A stretch of DNA of 64,000 nucleotides from Watersipora subatra. Taxonomy: Eukaryota > Bryozoa > Gymnolaemata > Cheilostomatida > Watersiporidae. Shown in pieces: positions 3,498 to 63,624 of the stretch. The DNA lies in the NCBI RefSeq assembly GCF_963576615.1, contig NC_088714.1:4526001-4590000 (forward strand), written 5' to 3'. The position numbers and the translations under genes were made by a program. The first letter of the stretch is position 1, and every line of letters begins with the position of its first letter. The notes below the pieces were generated by a model. The model was not told where the DNA came from and did no database searches. It saw only the letters and a program-made list of their open reading frames with translations.

Positions 3498-3820
3498 TAT
3501 GTGCTGTGCTATGTGCTGTGCTATGTGCTGTGCTATGTGCTGTGCTATGTGCTGTGCTAAGTGCTGTGCTATGTGCTGTGCTATGTGCTGAGCTATGTGC
3601 TGTGCTATGTGCTGTGCTATGTGCTGTGCTATGTGCTGTGCTATGTGCTGTGCTATGTGCTGTGCTATGTGCTGTGCTATGTGCTGTGCTATGTGCTGTG
3701 CTATGTGCTGTGCTATGTGCTGTGCTATGTGCTGTGCTATGTGCTGTGCTATGTGCTGTGCTATGTGCTGTGCTATGTGCTGTGCTATGTGCTGTGCTAT
3801 GTGCTGTGCTATGTGCTATG
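3498..3820 (+). repeat. 12-bp satellite, about 27 copies
   Basis: Unit ATGTGCTGTGCT, nearly perfect over about 320 bp with a few variant units near the start (CTAAGTGC, CTGAGCT). All three plus-strand frames are open (AVLC, CYVL and CCAM repeats), so the overlapping open frames here are artefacts of the repeat. Confidence 0.95.
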
Positions 3821-8994: not shown

Positions 8995-9137
8995 TTGTTA
9001 AGTTCGCCATGAGTAGTACATGTAAAACTGGCCTCCTTTCATTGTTGAGTTCACCATGAGTGGTACATGTAAAACTGGCCTCCTTTTCTTGTTGAGTTCA
9101 CCATGAGTAGTACATGTAAAACTGGCCTCATTTTTAG
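8995..9137 (+). repeat. 47-bp tandem repeat, 3 copies
   Basis: Units start TGTTRAGTTCRCCATGAGT and contain TACATGTAAAACTGGCCTC. Spacing is 47 bp between AGTTCRCC motifs at 9001, 9048 and 9095. Confidence 0.9.
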
Positions 9138-9311
9138 CTAGTCATAAGACTCTCTTTCCCTTGTAAATAATTGAAAATGTCATTGTTTGTGTGGAACTTT
9201 GAAAGTGCAAAACCAAAATGGATGCTTATCAACGTTATTAGCAGCATGCTTGGAAATGCACAAACAGTTTGAGACTTTCAGTAGCTGGAGCAACTGAAAT
9301 CTCTTTCAGGA

Positions 9312-9354
9312 GCTGTGGTGAGCTCTGGAAACTCTGTGGTGAGCTCTGGAAACT
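9312..9354 (+). repeat. 21-bp tandem pair
   Basis: GGTGAGCTCTGGAAACTCTG followed by GGTGAGCTCTGGAAACTGTT. Confidence 0.7.
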
Positions 9355-12300: not shown

Positions 12301-13380
12301 CTCTGAACTGAACAAGCTTTAAAATTGAACAAGTAGCATGACAGCGTGCTCAACGCAACGCATCACTTTTCGTAACGAAAGCTTTTACATGAGAGTTGTA
12401 GTTAATTGCTGCTGCTATTGCTTTGTAATGCACTAAGAATAATATAAAAATATGCTTAAAAAACAACTGTAATTGTATCTAGCTTCCTCCTGAGGTGAAT
12501 CATCGGCTTAACAAGCCAAATTACACTTCGGCAACATCTAGTGTGTCACAGTTACAAGCCACACATAAAAACTTTTCATATTAAAAGTGGTCTCATACTC
12601 CAATTTGTCACTATAAAGGCTAACGTTTACACAAAACGCTTTGAAAAACTAAATAATAAAACTAAATTACTTGTAGAAATTAAAATAGCAAAACAATGAC
12701 CATAAAAAATCCAATTGTCACATCACCTTTACGTTATTGAAGACAGGCAAATAGAGGTATGGCCTTGGCTCTACAGATAGCCAAAGTTTTGATACAAAAT
12801 GCAAAGCTAGTTTAAACCAGACAATATGAACTTTGAGTTAACGCAACACATTTAAATATTTGGTTCTTTTGTTTGATATATTGGATTCTATCTTCAGCTA
12901 TCACTGCTTGCCTATTCACTTTTACTCACTTGTGTATTTTTATCACCTTGAATTTCTTCCCCATGATAAATGCTAGCCGGCTTTAGATAAGGTTGAGAAA
13001 ATGTGTGACACTGCATCCATAATTTTATGCTTGCAATTGTAGGAAAAATTTGGTATACACATAGTATAAATGCGGTGCACACATAGTATATGCGCCGTGC
13101 AAGGGGTGTAAGCGGTACACGCTATATACATGATATATTTATATGTATATTTATACATATACGTATACTATTATTGTCTGTCATTGTTTATCTGTTCAGT
13201 TTTAGGGTTAAAGTTTTAGTAAGGAAAATCCATTTCACTGAGGGTTTGAACTTGCTTCATTCAAATCGCAAGTCAACAAACAAGCAGGCGTAACCTTTAA
13301 GCTGAGGCTATACTCACTTTCAATTTGTTATCTACTCTTATCAAGATTGCAGGTTACAAACTACATACCGGTATGTACTT
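9355..13380. other. No gene recognised
   Basis: A run of C at 9767-9775 and short unsupported open frames only. Confidence 0.5.
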
Positions 13381-14078
13381 TTCTATTTATATATTTCTCA
13401 AAGTATGTCTGTCTGTGGATCTGTCATTCCGACTAGAGCGCACGCTGATTATTTTACTGATGCGGCCACACGTCACGATGCCCCTGTTAAGAAATATGTT
13501 TCTTAAGGTTCGATTACTGTATCTGGCATCAAGGCAAATTCTTCTCACTCAGACAATCATATTGTCTCCGTATCATCGTATTCAAAGTTTTATGGATAGC
13601 TTCTGGTGGAACAGTAACCTTTTTTCATACAGACGTACTTCTGTGCAAAAATTGTTATTATTAATTCTACATATTCAGGACTTTTATTTTGTTTTCTCAG
13701 TTAGTATTAATTGTATCATTATTGAATCATCTTTTATTGTAATCATAACAAAACAGATTTAATTTAGCTATTACATGTTAATTATTTTACATTTACATTT
13801 AAATACTTTTAAAAGTGTTTTATTTTGTTTCCTAATTTATTTGACCTGCGCAAACCATTTTCCTCATGATACAAAGTTTATAAGTTACAGTTGTTTGACA
13901 AAGTTTGAAAGCCTTTACAGTTGTTTTATTTTTTCTCTTAATTTAAACTGCACAAAACACTTTTCTTATGTTATGAAGTTTGAGGGTTAGAATGGTAACT
14001 GTTGTTTTATGTTAAATAAAAGTAAATTTTCTGTGCAAATACTTTTATTATCCAAGCAAGGCTGGGCATTCAGTTAGT
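13381..14078 (+). mobile_element. Possible non-autonomous Helitron relic
   Basis: Begins TCTATTTATATATTTCTC followed by GTCTGTCTGTGG, a start seen in many invertebrate Helitrons, and ends GGCTGGGCATTCAGTTAG|T, close to a Helitron CTAG|T end. Inside, 13815-13990 holds two degenerate copies of a roughly 107-bp block (TGTTTTATTTT...AAGTTT). The open frames 13325-13762 and 13775-13990 lie in it and resemble no protein. No Rep/helicase domain. Confidence 0.35.
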
Positions 14079-14579
14079 ATGTACTAAAATTGACTCTGAG
14101 AAATTTATAAACATTTATCAATGGCTACTTATCAGGTATTTACTGTACTTGCGATACATTATGATTAAACTAAAATGTTAAAAGGTTTGTGTGATTTAGT
14201 TTTCAACACTAGCGTTATATAGTGACAAAGGCTCAACTAGTTCTTAAAGAAGTAATCAGTACTTCACTTACAGAAGAGTTACAACCTCAGCTTTGAAAAG
14301 ACCTATCTGAGTTCTAGTTATCAATAAAGAATTTCGGAATTGTTGTCTCTCAGCTATACGAGCTTTTATAATGATTTACGTAAGTGACAGCTATTTTGGT
14401 AGCAACTTATCTTTTAATCAAATGATTTAAAGATAAGTTGGTAAGAATTTGTCCCATTGTTTGCTTATAAGTGCTGTGTATGCATATGAGTACCTGATGA
14501 GACCGTACATTTATCACTTATAGACAACTAGCTGTGTTAACCGGCATTGCCCACGTTTTTAAAATCAGCTTATAAACTG

Positions 14580-14935
14580 ACAGGTAATGAGAGTTGCCTG
14601 CCACTTGCTATTAGTCTGGCACACTGCCAATAGATAATTTGAGTAAGCTTACTAATAAAAGCTACCCCTCTCCATGATGTTATGCCATGACTTTGAGTCA
14701 TGCCATGACTTTGAGTCATGACTGAAAGCAGTAGACTATTTGCTCCCAAATATATGAAGCTCTGTGACTCAGTTAGTAAGGCAGTCGGACGGGTGGACGA
14801 GAGGTTTCGAGATCAAATCTTCCGCTAATAGATTCTTTATTCCAAGATATTAATTAATAGCTATAGTTGGACATATACAATGGCACACTTTGAGAAATAT
14901 AGATTTGCGTGACTACTGACCTCATTTTTGGACAA
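14580..14935 (+). mobile_element. Composite repeat with tRNA-derived SINE
   Basis: The 5' module (GTTGCCTG..., TTGATAATTTGAGTAAGC, TTACTAATAAAAGCTAC) and the downstream tRNA-like head (CTCAGTTAGTAAGGCAGTCG, B-box-like GGTTTCGAGATCAAATC), then the tail TTTATTCCAAGATATTAATT. All three parts recur in the same order at 35.4-35.7 kb. An 18-bp tandem (CATGACTTTGAGTCATGC) sits at 14684-14722. Confidence 0.7.
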
Positions 14936-16829
14936 GTCTGGGCTTGCCTTTTTTGTCTGAGCCTTTTAACCGTAAACTGGTTGTACCGAGTTTAATCTTA
15001 AAACATCGTAACCAAGTCAGATCAACTAAAACAACAAAAACGTCTCAAATGCTAGAAAAGCATCTAAAATTTTAGATAAAATTTTTGGGAGTTTCACATG
15101 GGTTACCCTTTAGCTTGTTCTTTGTCATTGAAGAAACCTCTATTGCTGCCAGCCCGTACTTCTTATCTGCTGTTAGTTTGTCACATATCATTTGCCTAAT
15201 AGCAAAAATATATCGCTCTAAAGCCTGTTTTTAGTTTCTTGTAAACAGCTGGCTGCAAGGCCAGTAACAGGCTGAATACCAAAGGCCAAGATTTGTTTAG
15301 GACTCTGCTTCACATTTCTAAATTTTTTCACCAAAGCGCAAGCATTTTTTTTATTATAATTTACCTTGAGATGACACACCAAACTAGACCCAGCTACTTT
15401 GGAAATTTTTACTACTTTTGAAATATTGACATGGCTAATCAGATACTACCACTTACCCTTCGTCAAGGTTGCTCAAGTATGTTCTTGTGTAGCAACACTT
15501 ATTCAGTATTCCCATCATTATCTCCAATCTAATCAACTGCTGGATTTTTTGCACTGCATCTGACATGATGAATAGTTCTGCTGAAAAAATTTTTATGTCG
15601 TTTTTTTCGCTTCACACATTTTTTGCTTGTTCATATCATTAGTTTATCTTCTAACACTAATGAAATAGTTGTAACTACTAACTTTAAAACAAGATATAGA
15701 TGTGTTGATATAAAACTTTTTTTAAGTAATTGTGAAGCTTGCATACCTATACAAATTTTACTTTTTATCATTCCTAGATCGATGACTCTTTCATAAACTC
15801 ATCTTCTGCACAATTCCATAAATAAACATGATGCGGGAGAAAAATATGTTGCAACAATAATAAAAGAACACAAACCAAAACAGTTGTTTTACACAGGATG
15901 CAAGACATACGTTACCAGCTAAAACTAATGATGTAATTGATTACATATCAGCATCTATCAATACATATCAATAAAATTCTATTAGGATGAAAATCTCAAT
16001 GCAATGTAAAAAATGTCGTTTTAAACTTTTAAAACATCAACTTATATTTGGCATTGCAAAACCTATTGGGTTATTTTGTGCCATTCAGTAGCAACTGGCG
16101 GAATGTAATATCAGGCCTGTATTCCTTGGTTGCAAGTTGGGCTGCAAATGTTAGGCGACTAGTTGTGAACACCTGGAGGTTTGGGGGCGGTGTAAGCCCC
16201 TCAACAGGGTTTTTAAGCACCTGGACCTTTCAAGCATCAACAACCCTCAAAGTACGCATAAAATGGAATCAATTGTAAGCATCAAAATCTACATAAATAT
16301 ATTTCTTATGGCTCATGGTAGGCAAAACTGTTTCTGTATTCAACGAACGATATAAAACTCATGACACTACAGATTTCTGTAAGGGACATTGACAGAACAA
16401 AAGCTATTACTTCTTTATTGCAATAGCTCTTGTTTTGTCAATTTGTCCATAGCAGAAATCTTTCACAACTAATTCTGTATCTATTTCAACATCTTTATAT
16501 ATGTGTAATATTAGAAGATTATTTAGACGAACCTCGTCTAAATTTACACTTCAGACAATTAGAGGAACTGACAGACACCTCTCGCACTGGAGTAAATATA
16601 TATTTTTGCTTTACTTTATTTGGGTGAATGCGATATTTGTTCTTTTTCTTTCTTGCTGTGATGAAGAAAGTGAAAAAAATTGATTCAAATTTACATTGAT
16701 TGCATGCGCTCCCTTTAATTAACGTAAATACTGTAATCACAGACTTCAAGTCAAGTAAAATAATTAAAAGAGAAGATAAATGTTAGAGGCACCAGAGACT
16801 AGTGTCTTTGTTATCTCTGGTGAACCATT
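14936..16829. other. No gene recognised
   Basis: Includes a GC-richer patch at 16110-16260 that probably belongs to an unclassified repeat. Open frames around 16.4-16.75 kb overlap on both strands and lack family similarity. Confidence 0.45.
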
Positions 16830-18852
16830 ATCCTATTACTAATGTTGCTGGGGAACTTATGGAAACACTGTCGATGGGTTCATTTATAGGTGGTTCAGTT
16901 TCTGGTTTTAGTGTGTTCTGACTTTCATTACTTTGTTCTCGACTACCAGTGGCACTCTGTGAAACGGGCTCCCTAATTGTTTGTAAAACATTATTAATTT
17001 TATTTGTCTTTAACCACTTCTGTTTCTCGAGTTCCCAACACCACTGCAGATTTAGGAGGTACCTCTTGATCCCTAACAATTGCTGACTGGTTGATATTTA
17101 GTAGGATTCGCTCTTTTGTAGCATGTCTTTTGTTGTACCAGCCTTTTTACCTAAGTCTTTCATTAGCTTCAAAAATTATTAGACACCTGAAGGCAATGTT
17201 GTGTTCAGTGGGTCTACCAATTAAGCTTATTATCTTTCATTTAATAGTTGTGAAGAGAAGCACTGATTTGAGAACAGGGTATCATGATGCATACACAGAG
17301 CTAAATAAAAGTTGATGTTTTTATTCATATTGCCTTTGATCGTGTAAACTGGCCCATCAGCTCTTCTGTTGCTCTGGGCATGCCTTGGAGTATCTGGAAT
17401 ATGGCGCACATCAAACTCTGTGCACTCCCAAAGTCTGAAGAGTCCTAAAACTTTTCAACGAAAGTAAAACAGTTATAGTGATCTACCGCCAACAGGTATC
17501 ATTTCCGATCCTTGTTAAACAAGTCCATAGCTAATCTCCACCAAGGCATCTGCATGGCAGCTGGATTCTGATCAGTAGTTCTGTTGCTTTAAAATGGAAC
17601 TTTTCACACTGAAGATATCTCCTGACCAGGTTCCATATGCCAACAGTAGCGTCCTGGCAACTAAACTATAATAACTGTTAGTCAACAGATGTTTTTAGTC
17701 TTCCCTTGATCACCTTTATTAATATCTTACAAGTAGCTTAAGTAGAAAAATAAACACTATGTTCATAAAAGTTATCACGCCGTCCATTTGAGTCAGATAT
17801 TCCCTAATTGAGCAGATTGGTTCCATAATTTTAGTGGTCTGTTTAAAAATAGGCCAGTCTTCAATTATAAATTTACTAAATAGTCTTCCAACTTCATCTT
17901 GAACAGAACACTTTCAACTTACTCCACCCTTGCAGTAATGGGAAGCTCATTAAAAAATTTTAAGACAGTGACTCACATGTCATGTTGTCAAGTTTGTAAC
18001 TGACAACCAGAGAATATGACAGTTTATCAGCTAGATGCAACTTACGGACAAAAGTGATTACCATTTGGTATGCAAAGAAATTGCCTTAAGGTGAAATTGC
18101 CAAACTTAAATTGAAAACCAAAATAGCTCCTTACTCTCTAACACAGCCAACAAGGATTTTTAGTCCTTTCCAATGAAGAATATTTCACTGATAATTTTTT
18201 TGGTGTCTGATATGAAGAAAACTTATTACTAGTCTAACAGGTTGCCATTACCTCCTTTTTAGTCTGCACGCTCCTCTTTTCCGTCGCAGACGCAGCAGAC
18301 AAAGCATATTCAATAGGTTGTCAATCAACTTATTGAATATATATGAGAACATCATTCATCTAGTAGATTACTCCCTTCAAGTCTTATATTCGGCATTTCT
18401 TTTAGGTAAGTTTTGAAGCATAGCTAATTCCAAATAGGAAAAACTTGAAAAATAATCTTTGGAAAGGATAGAACAAAGTCTGCTTATCTGACTGCTCCTC
18501 AAGTCTCAGCAGCCAATAACCACAATTGGAATCTAAATACTAAAAACATTAAAAAGACCTAGTGCACTTAATGTTTCTCCTGAGTTTGATGTTAAGTATG
18601 TTGCTCAAATTGATGTATTCAATGCAAACTTGCAGGTTACCATCTTTCTTGGTACAACTATGCACAGCGCGCACCAAGAAGTAGGGGCTTTAATGCTTGC
18701 AAATATCCTAAATTGTTTCATCCTCTTTAATTCTTCCAATAAAGATTGCTTCCTAGCAACTTCTATCCCGCGTGGTACACTCTGCACACATGACTCAGCA
18801 CCCTCAGTAAAAGCAATTTTTACTTCAGAATCAATGGCCTCAAGACCATCAA

Positions 18853-18930
18853 ATATGTGTGCATACCAGTCACATGTGAAATCCAGTCACATGTGTGCAT
18901 ACCAGGCACATGTGGCATCCAGTCACCACT
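18853..18930 (+). repeat. Short tandem repeat built on CCAGTCACATGTG
   Basis: TGTGCATACCAGTCACATGTG and a variant with CCAGGCACATGTGGC, a roughly 40-bp unit in about two copies, inserted in the reverse-transcriptase region of the older gypsy relic. Confidence 0.65.
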
Positions 18931-19648
18931 AGGCTCTTTCACAACTTCCTCAATGATGTCTACTAGCCCTAGCTTGAATATGGCTGGCTTTCCTGGAAGA
19001 AGGTTTATTAATCCATTCACTAAGTATACTGTTTTCTTGACGTAAAACTTGAAAAGATAAGGTTACCACATATTTCTCTGACACCCTTAATGTATGGTTT
19101 CCAGCTTTTCAAAGATAGGTATATTGTAATGTTTAAGTGCTTTGCCATCCTGTGAGAGAGTACAGTCACAACAACCCGTGTGTCAGTTTCAAAAGTTATG
19201 GGGTAAGAGTTGGCATTTGCTTTAGGGCTCACGCTTTTGTTGTTTCAGTCCTAAAATCCACTCTTCCACCATTTAGTCATTCAAAATCAGAACCTATATA
19301 CGACTCATTTAGATATTTTACGTCATCTGAAAATTTTTGGAGGTGTTGACTTGCTTATTTTGCTTTTACATTTGTTTGGCATTTTCCAATAACCTTTCTC
19401 TCCGCATTCATAGCAAACTAAGCCCTTAGCTGAGCAATCATCTTTAGCATGTCTTGATATGTTACAGAACCAGCTCGCGCATTTTTTAGCACCCTGCAGT
19501 TTTCCTTAAAAACTGCCTAGCCTCTGGTGTGGAAGACACCAGCCAACTTGGCAGCTTATAAATGATGTGATGTATATTACTTTGCCTGATGAATGCAGAT
19601 AAGCAGATCCAAATCGTCAATATCAATCAGCTGCTTCCGCAATATATA

Positions 19649-20048
19649 CCATACTTTTCAGACTATTAGCTGCTACTCTCTTCAGTTGATTTGAGCAATG
19701 CGGCTTATATAAGGATGCGGCTATTTTGTGGCTTTTTCTTTTACCGCTAGGGTGCATTAACCAGATTCTCCGGTCACTGCACCTTTAGCGGTGAAGGAAA
19801 AAACTAAACAATGCCTAACGGTTTTGTTTCGTTAGGCACTAAGTTAAAAAGCGTCGGTTAATACGAAACAGTGCTGTTAGGCACGGTTCTGTTTTAAACA
19901 GCAAAGTTGCTGCCGTGTTAAAAAGCACTGCTTTGAGTTGTGCGGCCTATACAAAGGCGCGGTCTATGTATTGTTTTATTATCGTTTTTTGGAAAATGAA
20001 GCAGATGTGGCTTATATAAGGGTGCGGTTTATAGTCCGAAAAGTACGG
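19649..20048. mobile_element. 400-bp inverted-repeat (MITE-like) element inserted in gypsy gag
   Basis: The ends are CCATACTTTTCAGACTATTA and, on the opposite strand, CCGTACTTTTCGGACTATAA. The inverted similarity continues into a TTATATAAG motif near both ends. TA dinucleotides flank both sides (19647-19648, 20049-20050). It carries no open frame for a transposase. The gag relic is readable on both sides (GVCD before, LRKQLIDIDDLD after), so the insertion split a pre-existing gag. A second copy lies near 34.6 kb. Confidence 0.85.
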
Positions 20049-22235: not shown

Positions 22236-23450
22236 TTACAGATCCATGCGCTTTACGGGTCTACGTATGCAAGTGCTGCGGCGTAATACTGGTGGCTGAT
22301 TGTCAGAAATTGACATAGGTTGTCGTACTGCTGCAGTGTTGGATCCGGCCTCACGCTCGACTAGTGGGAGAGTGCTCGGTTCGACAGTGTCCTGATTGTT
22401 CGGTGACAATCGGCAAAGAGCTTGACGGTTGCGACGTACGCTGCCGTTCGGAGTGTGTACTTCATGCGAGCGTCCTGGAAAGTTTTTTGTAACAACGCCT
22501 TCTCTGTCGAGATCCCTAATGTACACGTCATCATCTCGCGATAGCGGAGATAACTCTTTCGCTCTGTGGCGGCTGTCAAAGTTTCTCTTCATGCAGGATT
22601 TGTAGTCCTGCTCTTTCGACCTGACTATCTCCATGTCAGGAGGATTCGGTAAAAGTGTCTTCGGATCAACGGGTAGGTCCAATCTTAAACGGCGTCCCAT
22701 AAGTAGTTCGGCAAGAAAATAACCGTTCTGTATGGGCGTGTTACTATACGCTAGTAGCGCTCTATACGGGACAGATGATTTGTGTAGCAGATTCTGAATT
22801 GTGCGCACGGCACGCTTTGCTTCTCCATTAGCTTGTGGAATTCCCGGTGAGCTGGTTATGCTGACAAAATTGTATTCTTCAGCAAACTTCTTGAACTGTT
22901 GGCTAGCGTACTGCGGGCCATTGTCAGATATGACAGACTGTGGAATACCGTGACGAGCGAATACGAACTTCAGTGCGTTGATCACGGAGTCGCTATCGGT
23001 TCGATCCAGCTTTAACACTTCTATGTACCTATAATAATAGTCTATAACTATTACATAATCTTTGCTTTGCCAATGAAACATGTCGGTGGCTACACGCTGC
23101 CATGGGCGGTCGGGGAAGATTGACGGTTGCAACAGTTCAGTCTTTTTGCTAGAGTATGTTTGGCATGTTCTACATGACTTTATCATTTCGAAAATCTCGG
23201 AAGAAATGCCTGGCCACCAGACTGACTGGCGGGCTCTCTCTTTGCATTTTGTGATGCCCTGATGGCCACAATGCAATCTAGAAAGAATGTCTGCGCGCAT
23301 CGGAAGAGGTATTACCAAACGGTCCATATACATGAGAACATTGTCCACTAGACTCAGATCTCCTTGAACTTGCCAATATGGCTTCAGGTGCGTCTGCAAG
23401 TCTGATAAGTAAAATGGCCAACCATGTCGCGCGTATTGCCTGATTTGCCT
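22236..23450 (-). pseudogene. pol: integrase
   Basis: 387 codons open from an internal Met (23399). Zinc-binding HHCC: HCGHQG and SCRTC flanking ARQSVWWPGI. Catalytic triad: TDMFHW (D), ISDNGPQYAS (D), PQANGEAKRAV (E). The C-terminal part includes RHRAKELSPLSRDDDVYIRD and ends RRPVKRMDL. This is the longest intact piece of the element and could fold as a domain, but it lacks an intact upstream frame. Confidence 0.92.
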
Positions 23451-23453
23451 TCA

Positions 23454-24059
23454 CGTTGTATCCTCCAGTTGTGCGTGTTTAATCTCATTAAGCCTGCGGT
23501 CCGTCGCTGGTAGTTGCAATAGAGACGATATAGTGTACACCTCAATTTCATCAGCGAGCTTCTTGTCCTCGACGTCTGGTCTACCTACTGGTCGGCGTGA
23601 AAGCAGATCTGCCACATAATTCGACTTTCCCGGTACGTGTTTAGTCACAAAAGTGTACTTCATTGCACATAACCTTTGTCTTTGAATGCGAATCGTAAGA
23701 TCGTTTACCGCCTTCTAATTAAATATGGACCCTAGCGGCTTGTGATCACTTTCAACTGTCACGTCCTGATGGCCAAGAATGTACCTATCAAACTTAGCAC
23801 ATGACCACGCTATACCTAGTGCCTCTTTCTCTATAGGTGACCAACGCTGTTCGGTTTTGGTTAGAGATCGGGATTTACATGCTACTAGCCTTCGGGAGCT
23901 ATCGGATTGCACTTGTAGCAAGACTGCTCCTAAACCCTGATTGGAAGCGTCACACATGATGATTATTGGTTTGTCGATGCTGTACCATGCTAAACCCGGA
24001 GCCTTCGACAATTCACACTTAATGTCAGACACGGCTTGCTTTTGGGCAACATCCCAGAC
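23454..24059 (-). pseudogene. pol: RNase H and connection region
   Basis: In frame with the reverse transcriptase. IIIMCDASNQGLGAVLLQ carries the first catalytic Asp, EKEALGIAWSCAKF the Glu, and VESDHKPLGSIFN another Asp. TAG at 23717-23715 interrupts it. The frame then resumes with VTKHVPGKSNYVADLLSRRP, the typical end of gypsy RNase H. A TGA at 23453-23451 separates it from integrase. Confidence 0.9.
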
Positions 24060-25090
24060 CTAATGTGGCGACTTAAGGACAGCACGAAGTGGTATCGTCA
24101 ATTCAGTGATTCGTGGCGAGAATTTTCCCAACTGATTCACGGTACTTAGGAGTGATTGTAGTTCAGTTATATTTGTCGGGTCAGCGAGATTTTGAATATC
24201 TCTGATACGATCGGGATCGGGTCTCACGCCTTCTGCCTCTACCAAATGACCTAAAAATTTTGTGGAGCGTTGGCTGAAGCAACATTTCTTCGCATTAAGT
24301 GTCATGCCGGCTGCCCTCAGGCGTTGGAGCACTTTGCGGACACGGTCATCATGCTCCTGTTCGCTGACAGAGCTGTATACTAATAAGTCGTCCATGTGAC
24401 AGACGACACTGTCAAGACCTTCGAGAATGTTATATATACACCATTGAAAGGTGTCGCCGGTGCTGACTAGTTCGAGAGGAACCCTATTGTGGCAATAACG
24501 TCCAAAAGGAGTCACGAATGTTGTGAGTAGCCGGAATTCGTCAGATAGCGGAATTTGATAATAGCCCGAGTTTGCATCAAGCTTGCTCATAAACTTTGCA
24601 CCTGATATCTTAGCAAGCGAGCTACCGACTGACGTAGTTGGATATGTGTCACGCCGTATGGCCTTGTTCAAATTTGTAAGGTCGGCACAAATTCGGATCT
24701 GATTTTGGCCTGCCTTCGGAACCTGGACCATGCCCGCACACCAGTCTGTAGGTACGGTCACCTTTGAAATGACCTCCTTTCGTTCCATATCGTCCAGCTG
24801 CTTCTTTACGATCCGCAAACGGGGCATCGATACTGTGTACGGGATATGCAATGCTACTGGTTTCGCATCGTCTCGTATCTGTATCGTAAATGGATCTGCG
24901 AGCTTGCTTAAACCACAAAAAACTTCAGAGTATTCAGATTTAAAATCATGTTTCCCTACAACATCACCAGAAACAGTGTTAACATTGAATACATGATTTA
25001 CATCACAAGTAACCAATTCTAAAGAAATACAAGCATCCTTGCTTAACAGGTTAGTGTTCTGATCAGAAAGTATATAAACTTTCTCAACAA
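24060..25090 (-). pseudogene. pol: protease C-terminus and reverse transcriptase
   Basis: The open frame from 25016 encodes a Ty3/gypsy reverse transcriptase. Motifs seen are WCAGMVQVPK, IRICADLTNLN, LDANSGYYQIPL, TFVTPFGRY, and CHMDDLLVYS at the catalytic Asp pair (HMDD in place of the usual YxDD/FxDD). The thumb region follows with KFLGHLVEAEGV. An in-frame TAG (24062-24060) separates it from RNase H. The frame differs from gag, so the upstream protease part cannot be read continuously. Confidence 0.92.
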
Positions 25091-26116
25091 TGTGTCGGTT
25101 GTCATGTTACCTCCGAAAGAATCTGCACTGCATATAGATACAGCAGCACCTGTATCAAGTTTGAACACACTTACGACCTCGAGACAGTTGTTGAAAGTGA
25201 TATTTATTTTTACCGGCCAGCTGCAATTGTCTACTTTGACTGGTTTGACCTCACCTAGGAAATGTGGTGTCGAGATATTTTCAGCTACTTGAACTTCTGA
25301 AACCTTAAATAATTGTCTGCATACCGATTTCCAATGTCCGATCTTCCGGCAGTGGTTACATACAGATTTGATAGCTGGGCATGATGATTTCGGGTGGGAG
25401 CCTTTTCCACACCTGTGACAGGCTTTCGGTTTACTGGCTGGATTAGGGTTATAGCTAGCAGCACCAGTCGTTATGGGCCTACAGTTTTTCCCATGTTTAA
25501 CGCTGTCTACTGACGCCGACGAACCTTCAATGCCAGGTCTCACTACCGTCTGTGCCTGCTTTGCTGATTCATATCTTCTGCAAATGTCTACAGCAGTGTT
25601 GAGAGTCAAATCTAATTCTGATTGTAGTTTGTTGCTCAGCGAATCATCAGTAACGCCAACAACCAATCTATCGCGGATGAGTTCTTCTCTCAATGCACCG
25701 TAGTTGCAATATTCAGCTTGTCTATACAGTTTATTGATAAATACGTCCATGCCATCGTTGCCTTGAGCAAGCTTATTGAATTTCGCGCGTTCTACTATCG
25801 TATTAGTACAAACACCAAAATATATATCGAAAGCATTAATTAGATTGTCGTGTGTATCCTCTGGGATAGCTTTGGCTAAAATGATATCTTCTGCTTGAGG
25901 GCCTAACGTGTAAACAAGGGTGTTAATCTGTTCTCTATCCCTTTGCTCACATAATCTACTTGCCTCCCGATACCTGAGCCATCTGGCTTTTTACCTAGTC
26001 TATTGTCCTGGATCATGTAAGTCAAATTTGTCCGGTGGATTCAGTCTTGGAATTGAGTAATGTTTATGTACCACAGAAGCGGCATCTTCTTCTTCGCTAT
26101 GCTCACTGTCTCCCAT
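25043..26116 (-). pseudogene. gag, nucleocapsid and start of protease (broken)
   Basis: The likely start ATG (26116) is in frame with the long open part beginning 25750. TAG at 26002-26000 and TAA at 25993-25991 interrupt the N-terminal capsid region. The open part encodes a capsid-like helical region (YRQAEYCNYGALREELIRDR) and two zinc knuckles, CHRCGKGSHPKSSC and CNHCRKIGHWKSVC, both CX2CX4HX4C. It then runs into an aspartic protease with LDTGAAVSIC. After this motif the frame shifts: the protease continuation is in the next frame from about 25085. Confidence 0.9.
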
Positions 26117-33084: not shown

Positions 33085-33606
33085 TAGCTAGTGCATCATG
33101 TTCTTGTCGCCGCTGCATCTGCTCAGTGGTTTCTGCACGTCTGGCAGCTGTAGCAGCTGCTCTGAGCCGTTTGAGTCGCTGCTGGGTTGGCTCAGCAGTC
33201 TCTGCACTTCTAGCAGCTGCAGCATCTATTCTGGCCTGCTCTCGACGTAGCTGTGTTTGTTCAGCAGTTTTTGCTCTTCTAGCAGGTGCAGTAGCAGTTC
33301 TGTTTTGTTGTAGGCGTAGCTGTGTTTGCTCTGCAGTTTCTGCATTTCTAGCGGATGCAGTAGCTATTCTGTTTTGTTGTAGGCGTAGCTGTGTTTGCTC
33401 TGCAGCCTCTGCACTTTTAGCAGCCGCAATAGCAGTTATATTTCGTTGTAGGCGTAGCTGTGTTTGCTCTGCAGTTTCTGCACTTCTATCAGCTGCAGTA
33501 GCCGTTCTGGAATGTTCTAGCCATAGCTGTATTTGCTCGGCAGTTTCTGCTCATCTAGCTGCTGCTTTGCGAATTCGGTCTCTTTCTCTACGGGAATCAA
33601 TCTGTT
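33085..33606 (-). pseudogene. 23-residue (STPR-like) repeat domain, Helitron-associated
   Basis: On the minus strand a 69-bp repeat encodes about seven imperfect 23-residue units such as TAEQTQLRLQQNRTATAPAR, alternating AETAEQ with charged helices. This resembles the STPR DNA-binding repeats often found near the N-terminus of Helitron-encoded proteins in invertebrates. One TGA near 33554 breaks it. The plus-strand open frame 33126-33629 is an antisense shadow. The sequence downstream matches a Helitron helicase tail, which supports the assignment. Confidence 0.6.
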
Positions 33607-33999
33607 TTTGCGTTTTGGCAGTAGAGTAGGCTTTTTGGGAAGTGTCGTACTGCTTCAAGAAGTGAGCGTTTTAATTGGTAAAACTTCTGGTTTTTAGGTT
33701 ATTTGAGGTATATTTTCAATCCGGAGCGTTTTTAAAAGTGTATGAGATGGTGTGCTTTTTTGTAATATACCCTGCTCTCTTTCTTCTCACCCTCGCCTAC
33801 CGCAACGCTCGGAGTACCCGTGCAAGTTTTGTAGTAGCTGTAGTTCTTTAGTACTCGTAGCTGAAAAAAAATTAAAAGTAACTCAGCTGCGGAAGGAAAT
33901 GAACATGTTTACTATCACAAACAGTGGCAAATCCAACGTTTTTAACACTTTCACTGCCGTAGACGCATTTTTGCGACTTTCCCAGCAATTGCGTAGAAA

Positions 34000-52300: not shown

Positions 52301-55300
52301 ACAGCAATGCAGCATGCTATGTTGTATTGCTATACAGCAAAGCTATGCTGTATAGCAATGCTATGCTGTATAGCAGCGCTATGTTGTATAGCTATGCTGT
52401 ATAGCAATGCTATGCTGTATAGCTATGCTGTGCTATGCTGTATAGCAATGCTACGCTGTATAGCAATGCTACGCTGTATATCAATGCTACGCTGTATAGC
52501 AATGCTATGCTGTATAGCAATGCTACGCTGTATAGCAATGCTACGCTGTATAGCAATGCTACGCTGTATAGCAATGCTATGCTGTGCTAATTTTATAAAT
52601 AACAGGAATTATTTCAGCGGTCTGTTCAACTGGCTTTTGGTTTGAATACATGTAGTTATCTTTTCTTGTTTGAGAGCAGCGTTTCTATAAATAGCTCTGC
52701 CCAGAATATGGCTGTTATAGTGCTAACATGGCGTTAACAGTAGACCACTTGTGATCGCTAGAAACTGCCCATGTAGCATAATACATGTAATATTATTGTA
52801 TGAGGACTTTCCAACAAATAACTTTGCTCAATTGCTGAAAACCTAGTTTTCACTTTTCACTCCATTAAATGCGCAATGATATAGAGTTCAAAAGTGTCAG
52901 CTGTGCAAACCTTTTTGTCTAATTATTTTTTGTAATGGTTTTTCTCTAAAATACAAATGCAGTTTGATCTATTTTTGTCTGCTAAAAATTGTAAAAATAA
53001 AATAATAAAAATCTAAATATTGAAGCAAGCAAACGAGGGACTGCAACCTTTTGTTTCGTCATCCTTTCTCTTCAGTGAAATTGTTCTCCTGGCGCCGATG
53101 TCCTGGTGCCGATGTACTGGGATTTAACATTTTTACCGAGACCATGAATTGAGGCTCTTGTTTATTTGTCTAGATCAATTCATGAGAGCCTTTGGATTGA
53201 TCTAGACTGTAATCCCCCAACATTTAAACCGTAATCCCAACCCATGAGGGTTGGGATTACGGTTTAAATGTTGTGGAAGAAATATTTGGGGTGGCTGAGG
53301 TTATAGGTTGGGGAAGTGATGGATTGGGGTGATAGCTTACGAGTTGGAAGATTGGGATTTTGAGCTAGTGCTTTCAATAAAATAATATGTTTTGGACATA
53401 ACACATGCATCTGTATAGGAGAGGATTGCTATCGCTCGTCTATTGTCTTGTAGGTACATATACAAGCCTTTTGGAGGGTCCAAACTCGGTCTTTCACAGC
53501 AGGTGCTCACCATGTTCTTATGCTTTGTGTTTATTGGCTTCTGGCACGGCACTGCTGCTAATATCTTTATCTGGGTTCTTGTGAATTTCCTCACTATGTT
53601 TATGGAAAACATGCATAAACATCTGATTCAATCACGCCAATGGAGGAATGTTGTGGTGAGTTTTACTAAGAACTATGAACTTCCTCTTAGGTCTCTACTA
53701 AAATTGCGTCTATTGCACTGCACACGTTGGACGATCTATTGTTGGTTACGCAGTATCTTACGGAGGGTAAAACAGAAATACTTGTGGTGTTTAAAGTTCA
53801 AGTAGATTAGGAACTTGCAAGGTCATTCATGGGATTTCAGTTTAAGGTCGCCTGTACGCAGACTACAACCACTAGAAAATCTCTCCAGCTTCTAGCTGCA
53901 TGCCTTTGTGTTCTGTGAATCATTGTAAAGCTGCATGTATTTGATTTCTCACATGCTGGTACATGGCAGGCCACTTAGACGTTAACTTTTGAGATAGGTT
54001 TCTTTATTTACAACCGCATATTCTTTAATCAACCAAGAACAGGTTAACTTGTATGACTTTATGGTCATTGCGGAATTGGGTAGGAAGAATCTACTCTAAG
54101 CTGTGAAAATGAATGTTTGAAAGATTTCTGAATGTGCACAATTATTGCTTTGCTGGCAGCTCCGTCATCAATCTCCGATATTGTCATTATTTCTGCGAGC
54201 TATGAAAAAAGCTGAGCTATACTTTTTCTAGCACTTTTTATGTGCTAGGAGGCCACATCCGTGGCTTATACTTGAGTTGTTGCTATAGCTTGCGCATCAT
54301 AATGACCCCAATTGTTAGCTTTTTGTATTATCATCCAAGGATGCTATTATATTATATGTTATAGTAGATGTGTGGCGCTTGAAAGGTTTTTTTTAAATTG
54401 TCTAGTCGTTTGAACTTTTTTGTCTGTAGCAAAAAAATTGCATTGGTCCGGTATGTCTGTGGTCTATGGAGGTTTTCTCCGCAGCCTTTTACAATATCAT
54501 AAACAGTTGCTACATGTCACTAGCTAATGTTATGTTCTCAATTTTGTGTTTTGCTGTTGTCATCAATATGATGAGGCTGTTTAGATTTTTCTAATGCCCA
54601 AAGTGTGTTTAAACATTGACAAAATTGTTCTCGGGGTAGTGAGGGTAAAAATTTGGGCTGATATTTATCGGTCATGAACCAAAATTCTCCTTTAAAGAAA
54701 AATTAAAGTAATTAAGAATTTCCCAGCACTACGATTCACTGGTGCAATACATAGCCAGTGAGGTTTCAGAACAAGTTTGCGAGAGATTGTGATTGAGCAA
54801 GGAAAGGGGTTGTGACATTACCGGATGCTGGCCTGGAATAAAGAAACAGAGAGCTTAGCTAGTATAACTAGATATAGTAGTATGTTCTTTATCACTGGCC
54901 ATCATAGCGAGCAAATTCTAACTGTTTCCTTTTTGACTCACTGAAATCTTTTATGTCTATTTTCAAATAGACGGAGTATAAAATCGCATGAAAATCTGGT
55001 GAGAGATCATTTTATCTCAGTCCATATATCTCAGTAGCCTTCTTTAAATCAAGGTATAAATGTACCTTAGACGCTGCACCTCTCTAGAGGCAGCTGTTAA
55101 TGTTGACACTTTAAAAAAGCTTCAAGGAGTGTCATAAATCTTAAGAATACAAAGCATGCATCGAAATAGAGATCAGGTTGAAAATGAGAACTAACATGAG
55201 CTTTTTAGCGAACCTCTCATCAATTATATGGTCTCAAGTCACGACTAGAAAATAACTACACATTAGGTAGGCCTACACAAATGCCCTTAATAATCGGCAA

Positions 55301-57906: not shown

Positions 57907-58136
57907 CTATTTTATTTGCAAGGAAAGGCCTGCACCAGATATGTTATCTCCTCCACCAGCGGTTTGGTAAATATCTGTACAGACCAGATTGGGAGCTACG
58001 CAAAACAGCTTGGCACCTTCTTCCCAACAACTCACAGGACGATTGTCCTCCACATGAATCCTTTCTGAACCTAAATAGACGATACAATCCGGCATAGAGA
58101 TTACCCGGATGTACACATGAGCTGTACTGAAATATT
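57907..58136 (-). CDS. ADPGK: ADPGK terminal exon with the catalytic GXGD motif
   Basis: The acceptor is TTTCAATGGCAG|AATATT. It encodes EYFSTAHVYIRVISMPDCIV, CWEEGAKLFCVAPNLVCTDI, then TAGGGDNISGAGLSLQIK and TAG (57907-57909). The Gly-Gly-Gly-Asp corresponds to the GXGD anion-hole/catalytic base motif of ADP-dependent kinases. AATAAA (minus strand) overlaps the stop codon region and could act in polyadenylation, but this is unproven. Confidence 0.88.
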
Positions 58137-61100
58137 CTGCCATTGAAATGCAAAATATACATTATTTCTGTAGCAGAAGATAGTTACCACTGCCCTTTAT
58201 GTGACAAGATTTGCCAATCTCGGATTGGACTCACCATCTGAGAGTTCACTAACAAGCAGACATACTCATAAATCGAGAGAATGCAGTTGATGACAAGTTA
58301 CTTTCGGTCTTAGAATATGTCAACAGCTGCTTAAACTACTGTTCCATGCTTTACTTGTTTGTTAAAAAACGGAAAATGTATTATACATAGTTGAGACAAT
58401 GGAGGCCATATCGGTTAGTTGATTAGGTTTAAGCGTTCAGTTAGTACTAGTACAAGAGATAAGACTTGAACAGTTTTTTTCTATAAAAGGTTAGAATCGC
58501 CATTTCTTGTTTCACTTTGTCACAGAATTACATAACTTTGTCAAAGGCTTTCGAACTATATTTTGCTACTAAGCTGAAGCTTCTATTTAACCCATAAAAC
58601 CCTGTCTATATATTTATTTTGTAAATGATGTACATTAGACGGTCAATAGACTACATTTCCTTTCAGAATAAAAACGTATGTCTTATCCAAGTTAATACAC
58701 AGATATAAGTACACACGTACAGTCTATCAAAGTTAATATGCAGTTATAAGTAAAAATGTTCAAAGAAACAATTGGAGACATTTTAGGGTCGATTCTGTCA
58801 CATAGGAATATCTGTTTGTTACCGTGACAAGGATGATCTTAATGAGATGGCCGACCCACTTCACCATTATTTACACGATCCCAATTTAACTTTTTGAAAC
58901 TATTTCAAGTAGGCCTAAGTCTATGGTACTTTAGACATAAGTAGGCCTAAGGAGCCATAGAAGTAACTTAATAAGATGTCAAGCATTCCCACTCTAACAG
59001 ATACTCGCAAACACATAAAACTCCATAGATATGAAGTTTATTGCAATGTGAATGTCATAACGAGATGACTCTCTAAGTCTATTAATCATTGAGAGCTGTT
59101 ATTAAATCACTTCTGGCTCCCTTTTACCAACATGTGAACCTTTGAGCTATAATATGTACCAGAAGCAATGATAAGATAGATGTATAAAATGGTGACTCCC
59201 ATCAGTTTTGAATACAGCTTAGGCTGTTTTTTAATTCCTCAGGCTCAAGAAAATATGGGTTTTTTAATACTTATTTACCAAGGGTATATGAGTTCATACT
59301 GCAAAAGGAAAGAAAAGGAAATTTTTCATTGCAATCTTTGGCAGCCCATTATGCAAAATCATAGTTGAAGCACGCAAATGTAATATTCTTATGTTACATA
59401 ACATGTAGCAGCATATTATATTTTTTTGTCATGGTTGCATATCGCCCTGCGTGTTTCCATTTTTATGGCATGACACATGTAGGTTCAGGGCTCACTCATC
59501 CAACCTTCCAACTCGCAGCATTCTTTAGTACAATTCTCTAGTATAACTGTACCAACCATTGTGACCTCCCTGTTGATCAGCAAATCAATAAATATTTATA
59601 TCAATAACGGTGCCAATACACTATCAAATGGGATGTTAATACGATACCTTTAGTTCGACTCGAAGAAAAGGATTCATCAAGGATGAGACGAGCATTGTCT
59701 AAATTTATACTAGTATTACCGCAGACGTGTCTGTTGGCGACCAAGGAGGCCTTAGCGGTAGCCGACATCGTGTTTGTCCACTTGGAACCTGTTAACAAGT
59801 TGGATATGCCCTAAATCCTACTGGTAAAAGGCAGTTAAAAGAGGAAAAATTTGAAGAATTAGTCATTATTAAAGTTTATTGATATGATCTAACAATAAAC
59901 TAAGGCAACTTGACAATTGATTGTTTGTATTCCTTCACTCATGGCAAGTACTCACTGCATTTATAGAGGTACATATGGCCAGTCTGGAAGGCTACTTACT
60001 ATTAGCAACAATACAAAGTTAGTAACATCAAGACAGCTGTTTGATTAAATACAATAGCATGTCCATAAATGGGCAAACAATTTCTATCTTAAGTAGGCAA
60101 CTTTGCAAAAGGGAAAGCGAGTTCGAATTGAGAAAAAGAAAATGAGAGTTTACTTATGTAGAGAAATTCTGCCCGTCCATCATGTTCAAACATTTATTTT
60201 GCAGGTCTGAGAAGCTATTAAAATCTGTTGAATATGTTTTAATGTTTAAATTTTTCAAGAAATTAACAATAGTTTGATGCTAGCCAAAAGCAATATTAGC
60301 ATATATCCTTGAAAAACTCTCTGATAACATCGCCAACTTCAATAAAAAGGTTAGTAAGAAATGGAGAAACACTATGAAGCAGATGTTCTTGTGTAAACCA
60401 TTGGGTAAATGTCCTAATATATACATGGAAGCAACACATATACAAATATTTTCTTTTAGAAGCCAGACATGTTTCTTTTGGCCTGATTCATAAGATCTAA
60501 TTAATAAATAAGCATAGTAATTACACACCTTTAGCCATGACTATAGCTTGGTAAGCAAGAGTGTGAACATAGTAATTACTTACCTTTAACTGTGACTATA
60601 GCTTGGTAAGCAAGAGTGTGAACATAGTAATTACCTACCTTTAACTGTGACTATAGTTCGGTAAGCAAGAGTGTGAACATAGTAATTACCTACCTTTAAC
60701 TGTGACTATAGCTTGGTAAGCAAGAGTGTGAACATAGTAATTACCTACCTTTAACCCTGACTATAGCTTGGTAAGCAAGAGTGTGAACATAGTAATTACC
60801 TACCTTTAACTGTGACTATAGCCTGGTAAGCAAGAGGGTGAACATAGTAATTACCTACCTTTAACTGTGACTATAGCTTGGTAAGCAAGAGTGTGAACAT
60901 AGTAATTACCTACCTTTAACTGTGACTATAGCCTGGTAAGCAAGAGGGTGAACATAGTAATTACCTACCTTTAACTGTGACTATAGTTTGGTAATCAAGA
61001 GTGTGAACATAGTAATTACCTACCTTTAACTGTGACTATAGCTTGGTAAGCAAGAGTGTGAACATAGTAATTACCTACCTTTAACTGTGACTATAGCTTG

Positions 61101-63624
61101 GTAAGCAAGAGTGTGAACATAGTAATTACCTACCTTTAACTGTGACTATAGTTTGGTAATCAAGAGTGTGAACATAGTAATTACCTACCTTTAACTGTGA
61201 CTATAGCTTGGTAAGCAAGAGTGTGAACATAGTAATTACCTACCTTTAACTGTGACTATAGCCTGGTAAGCAAGAGGGTGAACATAGTAATTACCTACCT
61301 TTAACTGTGACTATAGTTTGGTAATCAAGAGTGTGAACATAGTAATTACCTACCTTTAACTGTGACTATAGCTTGGTAAGCAAGAGTGTGAACATAGTAA
61401 TTACCTACCTTTAACTGTGACTATAGCTTGGTAAGCAAGAGTGTGAACATAGTAATTACCTACCTTTAACTGTGACTATAGTTTGGTAATCAAGAGTGTG
61501 AACATAGTAATTACCTACCTTTAACTGTGACTATAGCTTGGTAAGCAAGAGTGTGAACATAGTAATTACCTACCTTTAACTGTGACTATAGCTTGGTAAG
61601 CAAGAGTGTGAACATAGTAATTACCTACCTTTAACTGTAACTATAGCTTGGTAAGCAAGAGTGTGAACATAGTAATTACCTACCTTTAACTGTGACTATA
61701 GCTTGGTAAGCAAGAGTGTGAACATAGTAATTACCTACCTTTAACTGTGACTATAGCTTGGTAAGCAAGAGTGTGAACATAGTAATTACCTACCTTTAAC
61801 TGTGACTATAGCTTGGTAAGCAAGAGTGTGAACATGAACTCTGGTAAGCTTCCGAGACCCGCCTAGCTTATCTACAGCTGTAAACAGCTCTCGGATTTCA
61901 TCAAGAGTTGTGGCCACGCGCGGGTTGGAGTCAGCAACCAGCTGGGCTGGTTTGTTATTTAATACAGCTACAAGAGTTGATACACGCTTATTTACAGCTC
62001 ATATTCTCTAGGTTAAATTATAATGGTAGAGTGAAGGAACTGCAGGAGACCACTAAACGTACAAGTTGAATGATGTGCATGATGTATTGAAGAAGTTTAT
62101 AATATATTGAGAAAGTGTATAACACACTGAGGAAGTGTATAATACATTGAGAAAGTGTATAATACAATGAGAAAGTGTATAATACATTGAGGAAGTGTAT
62201 AATACAATGAGAAAGTGTATAATACATTGAGGAAGTGTATAACACACTGAGGAAGTGTATAATACATTTAGAAAGTGTATAATACAATGAGAAAGTGTAT
62301 AATACATTGAGGAAGTGTATAATACACTGAGAAAGTGTATAATACAATGAGGAAGTGTATACTACACGGAAGAAGTGTATAATACAATGTGGAAGTCTAT
62401 AATACATTGAGGAAGTGTATAATACATTGAGAAAGTGTATAACACAATGAGAAAGTGTATAATACACTGAGGAAGTGTATAATACACGGAGGAAGTGTAT
62501 AATACACTGAGGAAGTGTATAATACATTTAGAAAGTGTATAATACAATGAGAAAGTGTATAATACATTGAGGAAGTGTATAATACACTGAGAAAGTGTAT
62601 AATACAATGAGGAAGTGTATACTACACGGAAGAAGTGTATAATACAATGTGGAAGTCTATAATACATTGAGGAAGTGTATAATACATTGAGAAAGTGTAT
62701 AACACAATGAGAAAGTGTATAATACACTGAGGAAGTGTATAATACACGGAGGAAGTGTATAAAACACTGGGGAAGTGTATAATACATTGAGGAAGTGTAT
62801 AATACACTGAGGAAGTGTATAATACATTGAGAAAGTGTATAATACAATGAGAAAGTGTATAATACAATGAGAAAGTGTATAACATAATGAGAAAGTGTAT
62901 AATACACTGAGGAAGTGTATAATACACGGAGGAAGTGTATAATACACGGAGGAAGTGTATAATACACTGAGGAAGTGTATAATACACTGAGGAAGTGTAT
63001 AATACACTGAGGAAGTGTATAAAACACTGAGGAAGTGTATAATACACTGAGGAAGTGTATAATACACGGAGGAAGTGTATAATACACTGAGGAAGTGTAT
63101 AATACACTGAGGAAGTGTATAATACACTGAGGAAGTGTATAATACACTGAGGAAGTGTATAATACACTGAGGAAGTGTATAAAACACTGAGGAAGTGTAT
63201 AATACATTGAGGAAGTGTATAATACACTGAGGAAGTGTATAATACATTGAGAAAGTGTATAATACAATGAGAAAGTGTATAATACAATGAGAAAGTGTAC
63301 AATACAATGAGGAAGTGTATAATACACCGAGGAAGTGTATAATACATTGAGGAAGTGTATAATACATTGAGGAAGTGTATAATACAATGAGGAAGTGTAT
63401 AATACATTGAGAAAGTGTATAATACAATGAGAAAAACCAACCAAGTAAATTTGGAAGTTCCTGCTCATTCATGCCAAGGCTCTCAGCATATGGCAGTACT
63501 TTAGCTATGAGCCCTTTCAACAGCGACTCCTCGGTAAAGGAGGCCATCTCAAAGTGCGTCAGTGTGGAGGGAGCCATGTCTTTTAGAAACTTTTCCAAGG
63601 CATTCAATCTGTTTTCTCTAACCC
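57907..63624 (-). CDS. ADPGK: ADP-dependent glucokinase, C-terminal half (four exons; 5' part outside window)
   Basis: ADPGK phosphorylates glucose to glucose-6-phosphate using ADP; the animal enzyme is ER-associated and belongs to the ribokinase-like fold. Exons in transcription order are 63624-63442, 61997-61794, 59788-59648 and 58136-57907. Every junction is phase 1, and together they give 251 residues plus TAG. Diagnostic similarity to the human enzyme: THFEMASFT...LGMNEQEL (human VHLELASMT...LGLNEQEL), LTRVHVHTLAYQAIVTVKG (human LTRIHFHTLVYHILATVDG), and TAGGGDNIS (human TVGLGDAIS), the GXGD motif with the catalytic Asp at 57946-57948. The N-terminal half lies beyond 64000. It is convergent with HHAT, stop codons 743 bp apart. 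Its introns are unusually full of tandem repeats. Confidence 0.9.
58137..59647 (-). other. ADPGK last intron, no recognised element
   Basis: 1511 bp between exon donor GTATCG and acceptor TGGCAG. It contains a short imperfect repeat around 58907-58950 (AAGTAGGCCTAAG twice) and nothing else I can identify. Confidence 0.6.
59648..59788 (-). CDS. ADPGK: ADPGK exon
   Basis: 141 nt. The acceptor is CTTGTTAACAG|GTTCC and the donor AAAG|GTATCG. It encodes SKWTNTMSATAKASLVANRH, then VCGNTSINLDNARLILDESF, matching the human HWANQ...AGARVAGTQACATETIDTSRV segment of the sugar kinase core. Confidence 0.88.
60516..61835 (-). repeat. 24-copy, 55-bp minisatellite made of exon end plus splice donor
   Basis: Exactly 24 units of 55 bp (1320 bp). 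Read on the minus strand, each unit is the last 42 nt of the ADPGK exon (ending ACAGTTAAAG) followed by the first 13 nt of its intron (GTAGGTAATTACT). The unit at 61781-61835 is the genuine exon-intron junction; the other 23 lie in the intron. All copies keep GT at the donor position. The two most distal units vary there as GTGTGT and GTAAGT, while the other 22 are GTAGGT. Copy-specific substitutions sit in the exon-derived part. Confidence 0.95.
61794..61997 (-). CDS. ADPGK: ADPGK exon whose 3' end seeds the 55-bp array
   Basis: 204 nt, phase 1 in and out. It encodes VSTLVAVLNNKPAQLVADSN, DEIRELFTAVDKL and LTRVHVHTLAYQAIVTVK. The donor is AAAG|GTAGGT at 61794/61793. Joining to the next exon gives TVKGSKWTN, equivalent to human TVDGHWANQ, which fixes this donor as the productive one. 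The acceptor (GAG|CTGTAA at 61998) lacks a good pyrimidine tract and is the only one compatible with the open frame, so it is less certain. The last 42 nt recur 23 more times in the downstream intron. Confidence 0.85.
62081..63434 (-). repeat. 20-bp minisatellite filling an ADPGK intron (about 67 units)
   Basis: Unit on the plus strand is AATACANTGAGGAAGTGTAT with single-base variants. The array occupies nearly all of the intron between 63441 and 61998. It begins within about 10 nt of the donor and ends about 85 nt before the acceptor. Because 20 is not a multiple of 3 and the minus-strand unit has no stop in any frame, it produces long overlapping open frames of 20-residue periodicity (YYTLPQCIIHFLSVLYTSSV-like) that are not genes. 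A block of 13 units (260 bp) is duplicated at about 62261 and 62521. Confidence 0.95.
63442..63624 (-). CDS. ADPGK: ADPGK exon with the LGMNEQEL motif
   Basis: The acceptor is TTCTGTTGTGTAG (AG at 63626-63625). The exon encodes VRENRLNALEKFLKDMAP, THFEMASFTEESLLKGL and LGMNEQELPNLL, matching the human strand-helix region before the large-domain core. The donor read from phase is CTTG|GTTGGT, a weak match to GTRAGT. The minisatellite of the following intron starts within about 10 nt of this donor. Translation stays open straight through the intron, so the exon end rests on phase and similarity, not on a stop. Confidence 0.8.

Follow-up and report, generated by a model that had tools for sequence, protein, structure and literature searches.

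A tandem array of 24 head-to-tail copies of a 55-bp unit, in which each copy carries the end of a coding exon together with the 5' splice site that follows it, was identified in the ADPGK gene of Watersipora subatra, a cheilostome bryozoan. The array is quite probably a passively expanded intronic minisatellite whose first donor is the one in use; most likely, slips in copying multiplied the unit and splicing removes the extra copies without harm. It lies in a stretch of 64,000 nucleotides (4526001-4590000 of contig C7; hereafter the window, with positions counted from its first letter) and was found at one place only in the assembly (239 contigs, 783.72 Mb; the genome note gives an assembly size of 783.70 Mb, PMC12902671).

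The ADPGK exons contained in the window, exons 4-7, when joined encode 219 residues that are 100% identical to the W. subatra protein P0121, named by NCBI as 'ADP-dependent glucokinase-like [Watersipora subatra]'. The coding sequence of P0121 is distributed over seven exons on the minus strand, and mapping of the protein places exons 1-3 outside the window, at would-be window positions 64207-66370. Exons 4-7 below are likewise from the mapping of P0121.

63442-63624, minus strand: ADPGK exon 4, 183 nt
61794-61967, minus strand: ADPGK coding exon 5, 174 nt, phase 1 to phase 1
59789-61793, minus strand: host intron between exons 5 and 6, 2,005 nt, phase 1
59648-59788, minus strand: ADPGK exon 6, 141 nt
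57907-58070, minus strand: coding part of ADPGK exon 7, with the GGGD motif and the stop

The Pfam family ADP_PFK_GK (PF04587) is matched above its cut-off of 27 bits by both the 219-residue window part (237.9 bits, E 2.2e-70) and P0121 (451.4 bits, E 3.6e-135), and this score above the gathering value, together with the GXGD motif (GGGD) in exon 7, assigns the product to the ADP-dependent glucokinases. The window part also matches the PDB entry 5ccf, 'ADP-dependent glucokinase' (E 1.3e-24), which we take to be the mouse enzyme. As judged from sequence similarity, the gene is a real ADPGK.

The repeated unit combines 42 nt from the end of exon 5, which read VHTLAYQAIVTVK followed by the base that opens the next codon, with the first 13 nt of the intron including the 5' splice site, which read GTAGGTAATTACT in 22 of the 24 copies. 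Exon 5 ends at 61794, its donor lies at 61793 and exon 6 begins at 59788. The final 42 nt of exon 5 (61794-61835) belong to copy 1 and the array takes up the first 1,278 nt of the host intron.

60516-61835, minus strand: tandem array, 24 head-to-tail copies of the 55-bp unit (24 x 55 = 1,320 bp)
61792-61793, minus strand: donor 1, AAG/GTAGGT (the slash marks the splice site), the donor to which the NCBI protein model points
60516-61780, minus strand: copies 2-24, within the intron, with 23 further donors
60571-60625, minus strand: copy 23, with the strongest donor, AAG/GTAAGT
60516-60570, minus strand: copy 24, the most diverged (5 changes), with a weak donor, AAG/GTGTGT

Every one of the 24 copies is 55 bp long, and their point differences define eight unit types, which follow one another along the array in the order AAABAACAACDACAACDADEAFGH; the exon's own type is found in 12 copies. 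Tandem Repeats Finder (TRF) placed the array at 60513-61835, with 24.1 copies of period 55 bp, a 96% match and a score of 2471. The copy count, the origin of the unit from an exon end plus donor and the exon boundary, all proposed in a preliminary description of this DNA made from the letters alone, are thus borne out by TRF, by the in-register units and by the exon join of P0121.

The GT of the donor is kept in all 24 copies, with AGGTAGGT in 22 of them, AGGTAAGT in copy 23 and AGGTGTGT in copy 24. The preliminary description had every donor conserved; this holds for the GT, but the match to GTAGGT is limited to 22 of the 24 copies. Its further statement, that substitutions fall in the exon-derived part, is not supported: the altered donors of copies 23 and 24 place substitutions in the intron-derived part as well, and no significant bias was observed. 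Variable positions over all 24 copies amount to 9 of 42 in the exonic part and 2 of 13 in the intronic part (Fisher p=1.0), and over copies 1-22 to 8 of 42 and 0 of 13 (p=0.18); by this comparison there is no significant sign that the donors of the array are protected, nor that they are being removed. Duplex energies computed with the human U1 5' end were -11.9 kcal/mol for donors 1-22, -12.2 for donor 23 and -7.8 for donor 24, while the donors of exon 4 (-5.0) and exon 6 (-6.5) pair more weakly.

The secondary structure around the donors was also examined. The exon part of the commonest unit contains TTGCTTACC, complementary to GGTAGGTAA of the donor, and this pairing is present in the minimum free energy fold of three units. 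Predicted donor accessibility is 0.0006 in the consensus array and ranges from 0.0001 to 0.003 across the 24 real donors; values as low or lower were obtained in 33% of 200 shuffles of the unit in which the donor was kept. An array reduced to one copy gave 0.0005 with the intron start of copy 1 and 0.0014 with that of copy 24. Array-specific masking of the donors by RNA structure was rejected, the accessibility being unremarkable against the 200 shuffled units. As a separate observation, TTGCTTACC shares CTTACC with the U1 5' end, and CTTACC occurs 20 times in the array.

The array retains marks of its growth. It opens with an ATG (61835-61833), and a second ATG stands directly after it (60515-60513), followed by other intron sequence.

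60513-60515, minus strand: ATG just after the array, matching the opening ATG at 61833-61835 (3-bp microhomology)
60901-61230, minus strand: copies 12-17, a 330-bp block duplication of copies 6-11 (61231-61560)

The ATG pair is likely to be the microhomology of the founding duplication, since a duplication between two ATG triplets would yield the founding pair of units with an ATG at both edges. The founding step would have copied the final 42 nt of exon 5 in tandem, together with 13 intron nt, between these triplets, and the array would then have grown by unequal exchange or slippage, including the copying of a six-unit block. Copies 12-17 repeat the unit types of copies 6-11 in the same order without difference, which points to growth by multi-unit exchange. 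The farther a copy lies from the exon, the more it differs from the exon copy (Spearman 0.48, p 0.019, with p 0.0068 in a one-sided permutation test; rho 0.40, p 0.06 when copy 24 is left out), as if new copies arose at the exon end; this gradient is suggestive only, because the block duplication makes the copies non-independent. The distinct changes in the exon-derived part comprise seven nonsynonymous and three synonymous ones, near the random expectation of 74% nonsynonymous; copies 2-24 therefore behave as noncoding DNA, with no sign of coding constraint.

The consequences of using a later donor can be read directly from the sequence. When donors 2, 3, 4, 23 and 24 were joined in silico to exon 6, all five products read ...TVKGR-stop, as the preliminary description had predicted in proposing that later donors truncate the protein. 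The other later donors must give the same end, since the stop is reached within the first 8 retained nucleotides, and it is located upstream of two exon junctions. P0121 joins exon 5, at donor 1, directly to exon 6 without insertion, and its exon 5/6 junction is free of gaps in an alignment with eight other ADPGK homologues. No truncated ADPGK was present among the matches listed in protein searches with the 219-residue part (best 120 of 494 and best 120 of 905) or among the best 120 of 705 matches to the truncated form (E up to 1e-60), an absence that concerns deposited protein models and not RNA reads. P0121, in a cluster of one sequence, was the only match above 62% identity among the best 120 of the 494, 905 and 705.

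The repeat content of the genome was surveyed in twenty 10-kb samples taken at 3-Mb steps along contig C7, which carries ADPGK. In the 200 kb sampled, tandem arrays number 79 and make up 15.3% of bases; one sample (L016) consists entirely of a 98-bp satellite. Twenty of the arrays are large (period ≥15, ≥5 copies, ≥300 bp), and the donor-like motif AGGTRNGT occurs in none of these 20. If large arrays were seeded at random, about 410 of some 78,000 would be expected to include a donor before selection acts, a figure estimated roughly from a single chromosome. Repeats make up a smaller share of the window than of the samples (7.6% of bases against 15.3%), and the window has three large arrays.

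A genome-wide search for three AGGTRNGT motifs with gaps of 20-50 nt gave 17,036 matches; of three control patterns with the same composition, the reversed one gave 4,741, a scrambled motif 8,495 and the reverse of the scramble 20,047. These are counts of overlapping matches, not arrays, for one spacing range and one scramble. A 3.6-fold enrichment (17,036 against 4,741) was considered and dropped in view of the scrambled controls, and since the controls span 4,741-20,047, no enrichment of donor-like tandem motifs is claimed. Arrays of many AGGTRNGT units were noted on contig C1 at 151986-153237, 521340-521788, 1609941-1610253 and from 2139934 onward. Flanks were read for three of these and for one more at 1238578, and an exon end was recognised at none of the four, a check of low power with about 0.7 kb of flank ending in the array. 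One array (L025) begins about 325 bp after a plausible exon with a weak Pfam match below the cut-off; another (L026) runs opposite to a 75-residue open frame without Pfam match; a 58-residue open frame, also without Pfam match, reaches the third (L024), where an exon end is possible; and no exon end was visible by eye at the fourth (L027). Donor-like tandem motifs are thus common in W. subatra, and an array on an exon end seems to be rarer and can be explained by random seeding.

Other features of the window were recorded, including a second array in the ADPGK gene.

62088-63431, minus strand: another minisatellite, 67 copies of a 20-bp unit, in the ADPGK intron upstream of exon 5 (61968-63441)

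This 20-bp array begins at intron position +11, almost fills its intron and has 21 acceptor-like CTTYCTCAG sites, so that exon 5 has acceptor-like repeats on its upstream side and donor repeats on its downstream side. Retroelement frames at 22236-25750 (minus strand) match reverse transcriptase (PF00078) and integrase (PF00665 and PF17921), and a third such frame at 25043-25750 (minus strand) has CCHC-like motifs by eye without a Pfam match. An open frame of 167 residues at 33126-33629 (plus strand), mostly a 69-bp repeat (5.6 copies), is rich in Ala and Cys, lacks a Pfam match and may be spurious. Opposite ADPGK, an open frame at 53419-53802 (plus strand) contains an MBOAT exon (PF03062, E 1.6e-12), presumably of an HHAT-type acyltransferase. 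A 12-bp array of 27.5 copies (98% match, TRF) lies at 3489-3817.

The preliminary description had offered a passive expansion with many decoy U1 sites as one of two alternatives, and it is this one that fits best, given the neutral-like changes, the join in P0121 and the richness of the genome in minisatellites. Splicing would mainly take the first donor, beside the constrained exon, and copies 2-24 would leave with the intron and drift as noncoding DNA, with probably little or no effect on fitness. That positions of the intron part vary no less often than those of the exon part over all copies counts in favour of passive expansion. Against it count the donors themselves, numbers 2-22 being as strong as donor 1 and donor 23 slightly stronger; the intact intron positions of copies 1-22 (0 of 13 against 8 of 42, p=0.18); and the repeat content of the window, below that of the samples (7.6% against 15.3%). 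Where donors are duplicated, an intron-proximal site can prevail if U1 binds every one of them, and with later donors of equal or greater strength a clean use of donor 1 is therefore not assured. As an exon end was recognised at none of the four arrays checked, the predicted hundreds of donor-spanning arrays are also unseen. A dose effect like that of the repeat in human CBS, in which a minority of later-donor transcripts (TVKGR-stop) would be degraded and more copies would mean less ADPGK without any regulation, is unlikely. It would draw on the equality of donors 2-22 with donor 1 in U1 pairing and the excess of donor 23, on the premature stop upstream of two exon junctions in the five translated cases, and on the lower CBS activity reported with more repeat units (PMC5188458); the matches listed hold no truncated protein, which speaks against it, although decay or annotation filters might have removed such transcripts. 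That the array acts as a natural splicing rheostat, its 23 decoy donors (one of them stronger) diverting a share of ADPGK transcripts to decay, is quite unlikely. If it did, copy number would change fast by block duplication and would set the enzyme level of each colony or allele.

The other alternative of the preliminary description, a regulated on/off switch in which a controlled choice between donor 1 and the later donors would turn ADPGK off through nonsense-mediated decay, is very unlikely. The stop just past donor 1 would indeed make any later donor an off state, but one retained donor would presumably suffice for this, variable positions are equally frequent in the intron and exon parts, donor-like tandem motifs stand at background level in the W. 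subatra genome, and the proposal is disfavoured both by the lack of a truncated protein among the matches listed and by the lack of any significant sign of donor retention above the background rate. An error of assembly, by collapse or expansion, is a highly improbable source of the array. Tandem repeats are error-prone in general, but eight distinct unit types at a single location in the assembly argue against an artefact, as do the PacBio HiFi data with QV 63.5 given in the genome note and a mean of about 6 kb per read (13.30 Gb over 2.20 million reads), which exceeds the length of the array (PMC12902671). That the copies act as in-frame mini-exons of 12 or 6 nt, or as sites of recursive splicing, is extremely improbable: each unit has an acceptor-like CTATAG or TCACAG, the resulting VTVK and VK insertions translate in frame and AAAG/GTAGGT used as an acceptor would recreate the same donor, but the acceptors look weak by eye, an intact frame is to be expected of a unit copied from coding sequence, and P0121 has no extra VTVK or VK at its exon 5/6 junction.

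The array offers an unusually clear natural test of donor choice by the spliceosome among 24 sites. Of these, 22 agree with one another at every one of the nine donor positions, and both the exon-derived context and the spacing are uniform. The genome note reports that RNA-seq data (poly(A), specimen tzWatSuba4, BioProject PRJEB62167) and contigs of the alternate haplotype have been deposited for W. subatra (PMC12902671), so that donor choice and length variation could be measured without new experiments; a genome has also been published for another cheilostome, Flustra foliacea (PMC13326412). The array also illustrates how exact splice-site copies can come to lie inside a conserved gene where the genome is rich in minisatellites.

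The preliminary description knew of no described case of this form. The form is already known, since the 31-bp VNTR of human CBS shares the layout: it is given as c.1444_1467+7(16_21), with 16-21 copies and point differences (PMC2630376), is listed as 'exon 13-intron 13' (PMC1395315), and is termed non-coding where more repeat units were found to decrease activity (PMC5188458); its original description (Lievers 2001) is taken here as cited in these three papers. The text of PMC3614847 available to us does not treat the CBS repeat. The ADPGK array has the properties of an exon-intron boundary VNTR: the unit spans an exon end and its donor, copy 1 is the real exon end, and the many copies have invariant length with point differences. 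No earlier report of the W. subatra ADPGK array was found in the literature text searched. The miR-137 VNTR was considered as the same form and set aside, its splice sites being reported to lie in pre-miR-137 sequence.

Several reported systems resemble the array in part. In human CBS the 844ins68 variant likewise duplicates an exon-intron junction in tandem and leaves duplicated splice sites to choose from (PMC2630376). Tandem repeats at exon-intron boundaries, with altered splicing, are reported in human segmental duplications (PMC2812944) and are similarly minisatellite expansions across such a boundary; they average 30 bp x 4 copies and lie in recent paralogs. Tandem duplication of AGGT-bearing gene segments has been linked to intron gain (the Rogers model), with a multiple duplication of 24 bp in fission yeast (PMC4974935). 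The ADPGK array shares the tandem copies of such a segment, but its AGGT straddles an existing exon end and no new intron results; a duplicated exonic segment does not supply both GT and AG here, as 13 intronic nt lie inside the unit and the acceptor at 59789 lies 727 nt beyond the array, where the sequence is not repeated. With the CBS VNTR the array has in common an enzyme gene, many copies of fixed unit length, scattered substitutions and a unit formed of an exon end (24 nt in CBS) and an intron start with the donor (7 nt in CBS), and it provides an invertebrate example of the same form. Its unit is 55 bp (42+13) in 24 copies, in another gene and another phylum, and the bryozoan case differs from the known ones in unit, gene, phylum and the cleanness of its copies.
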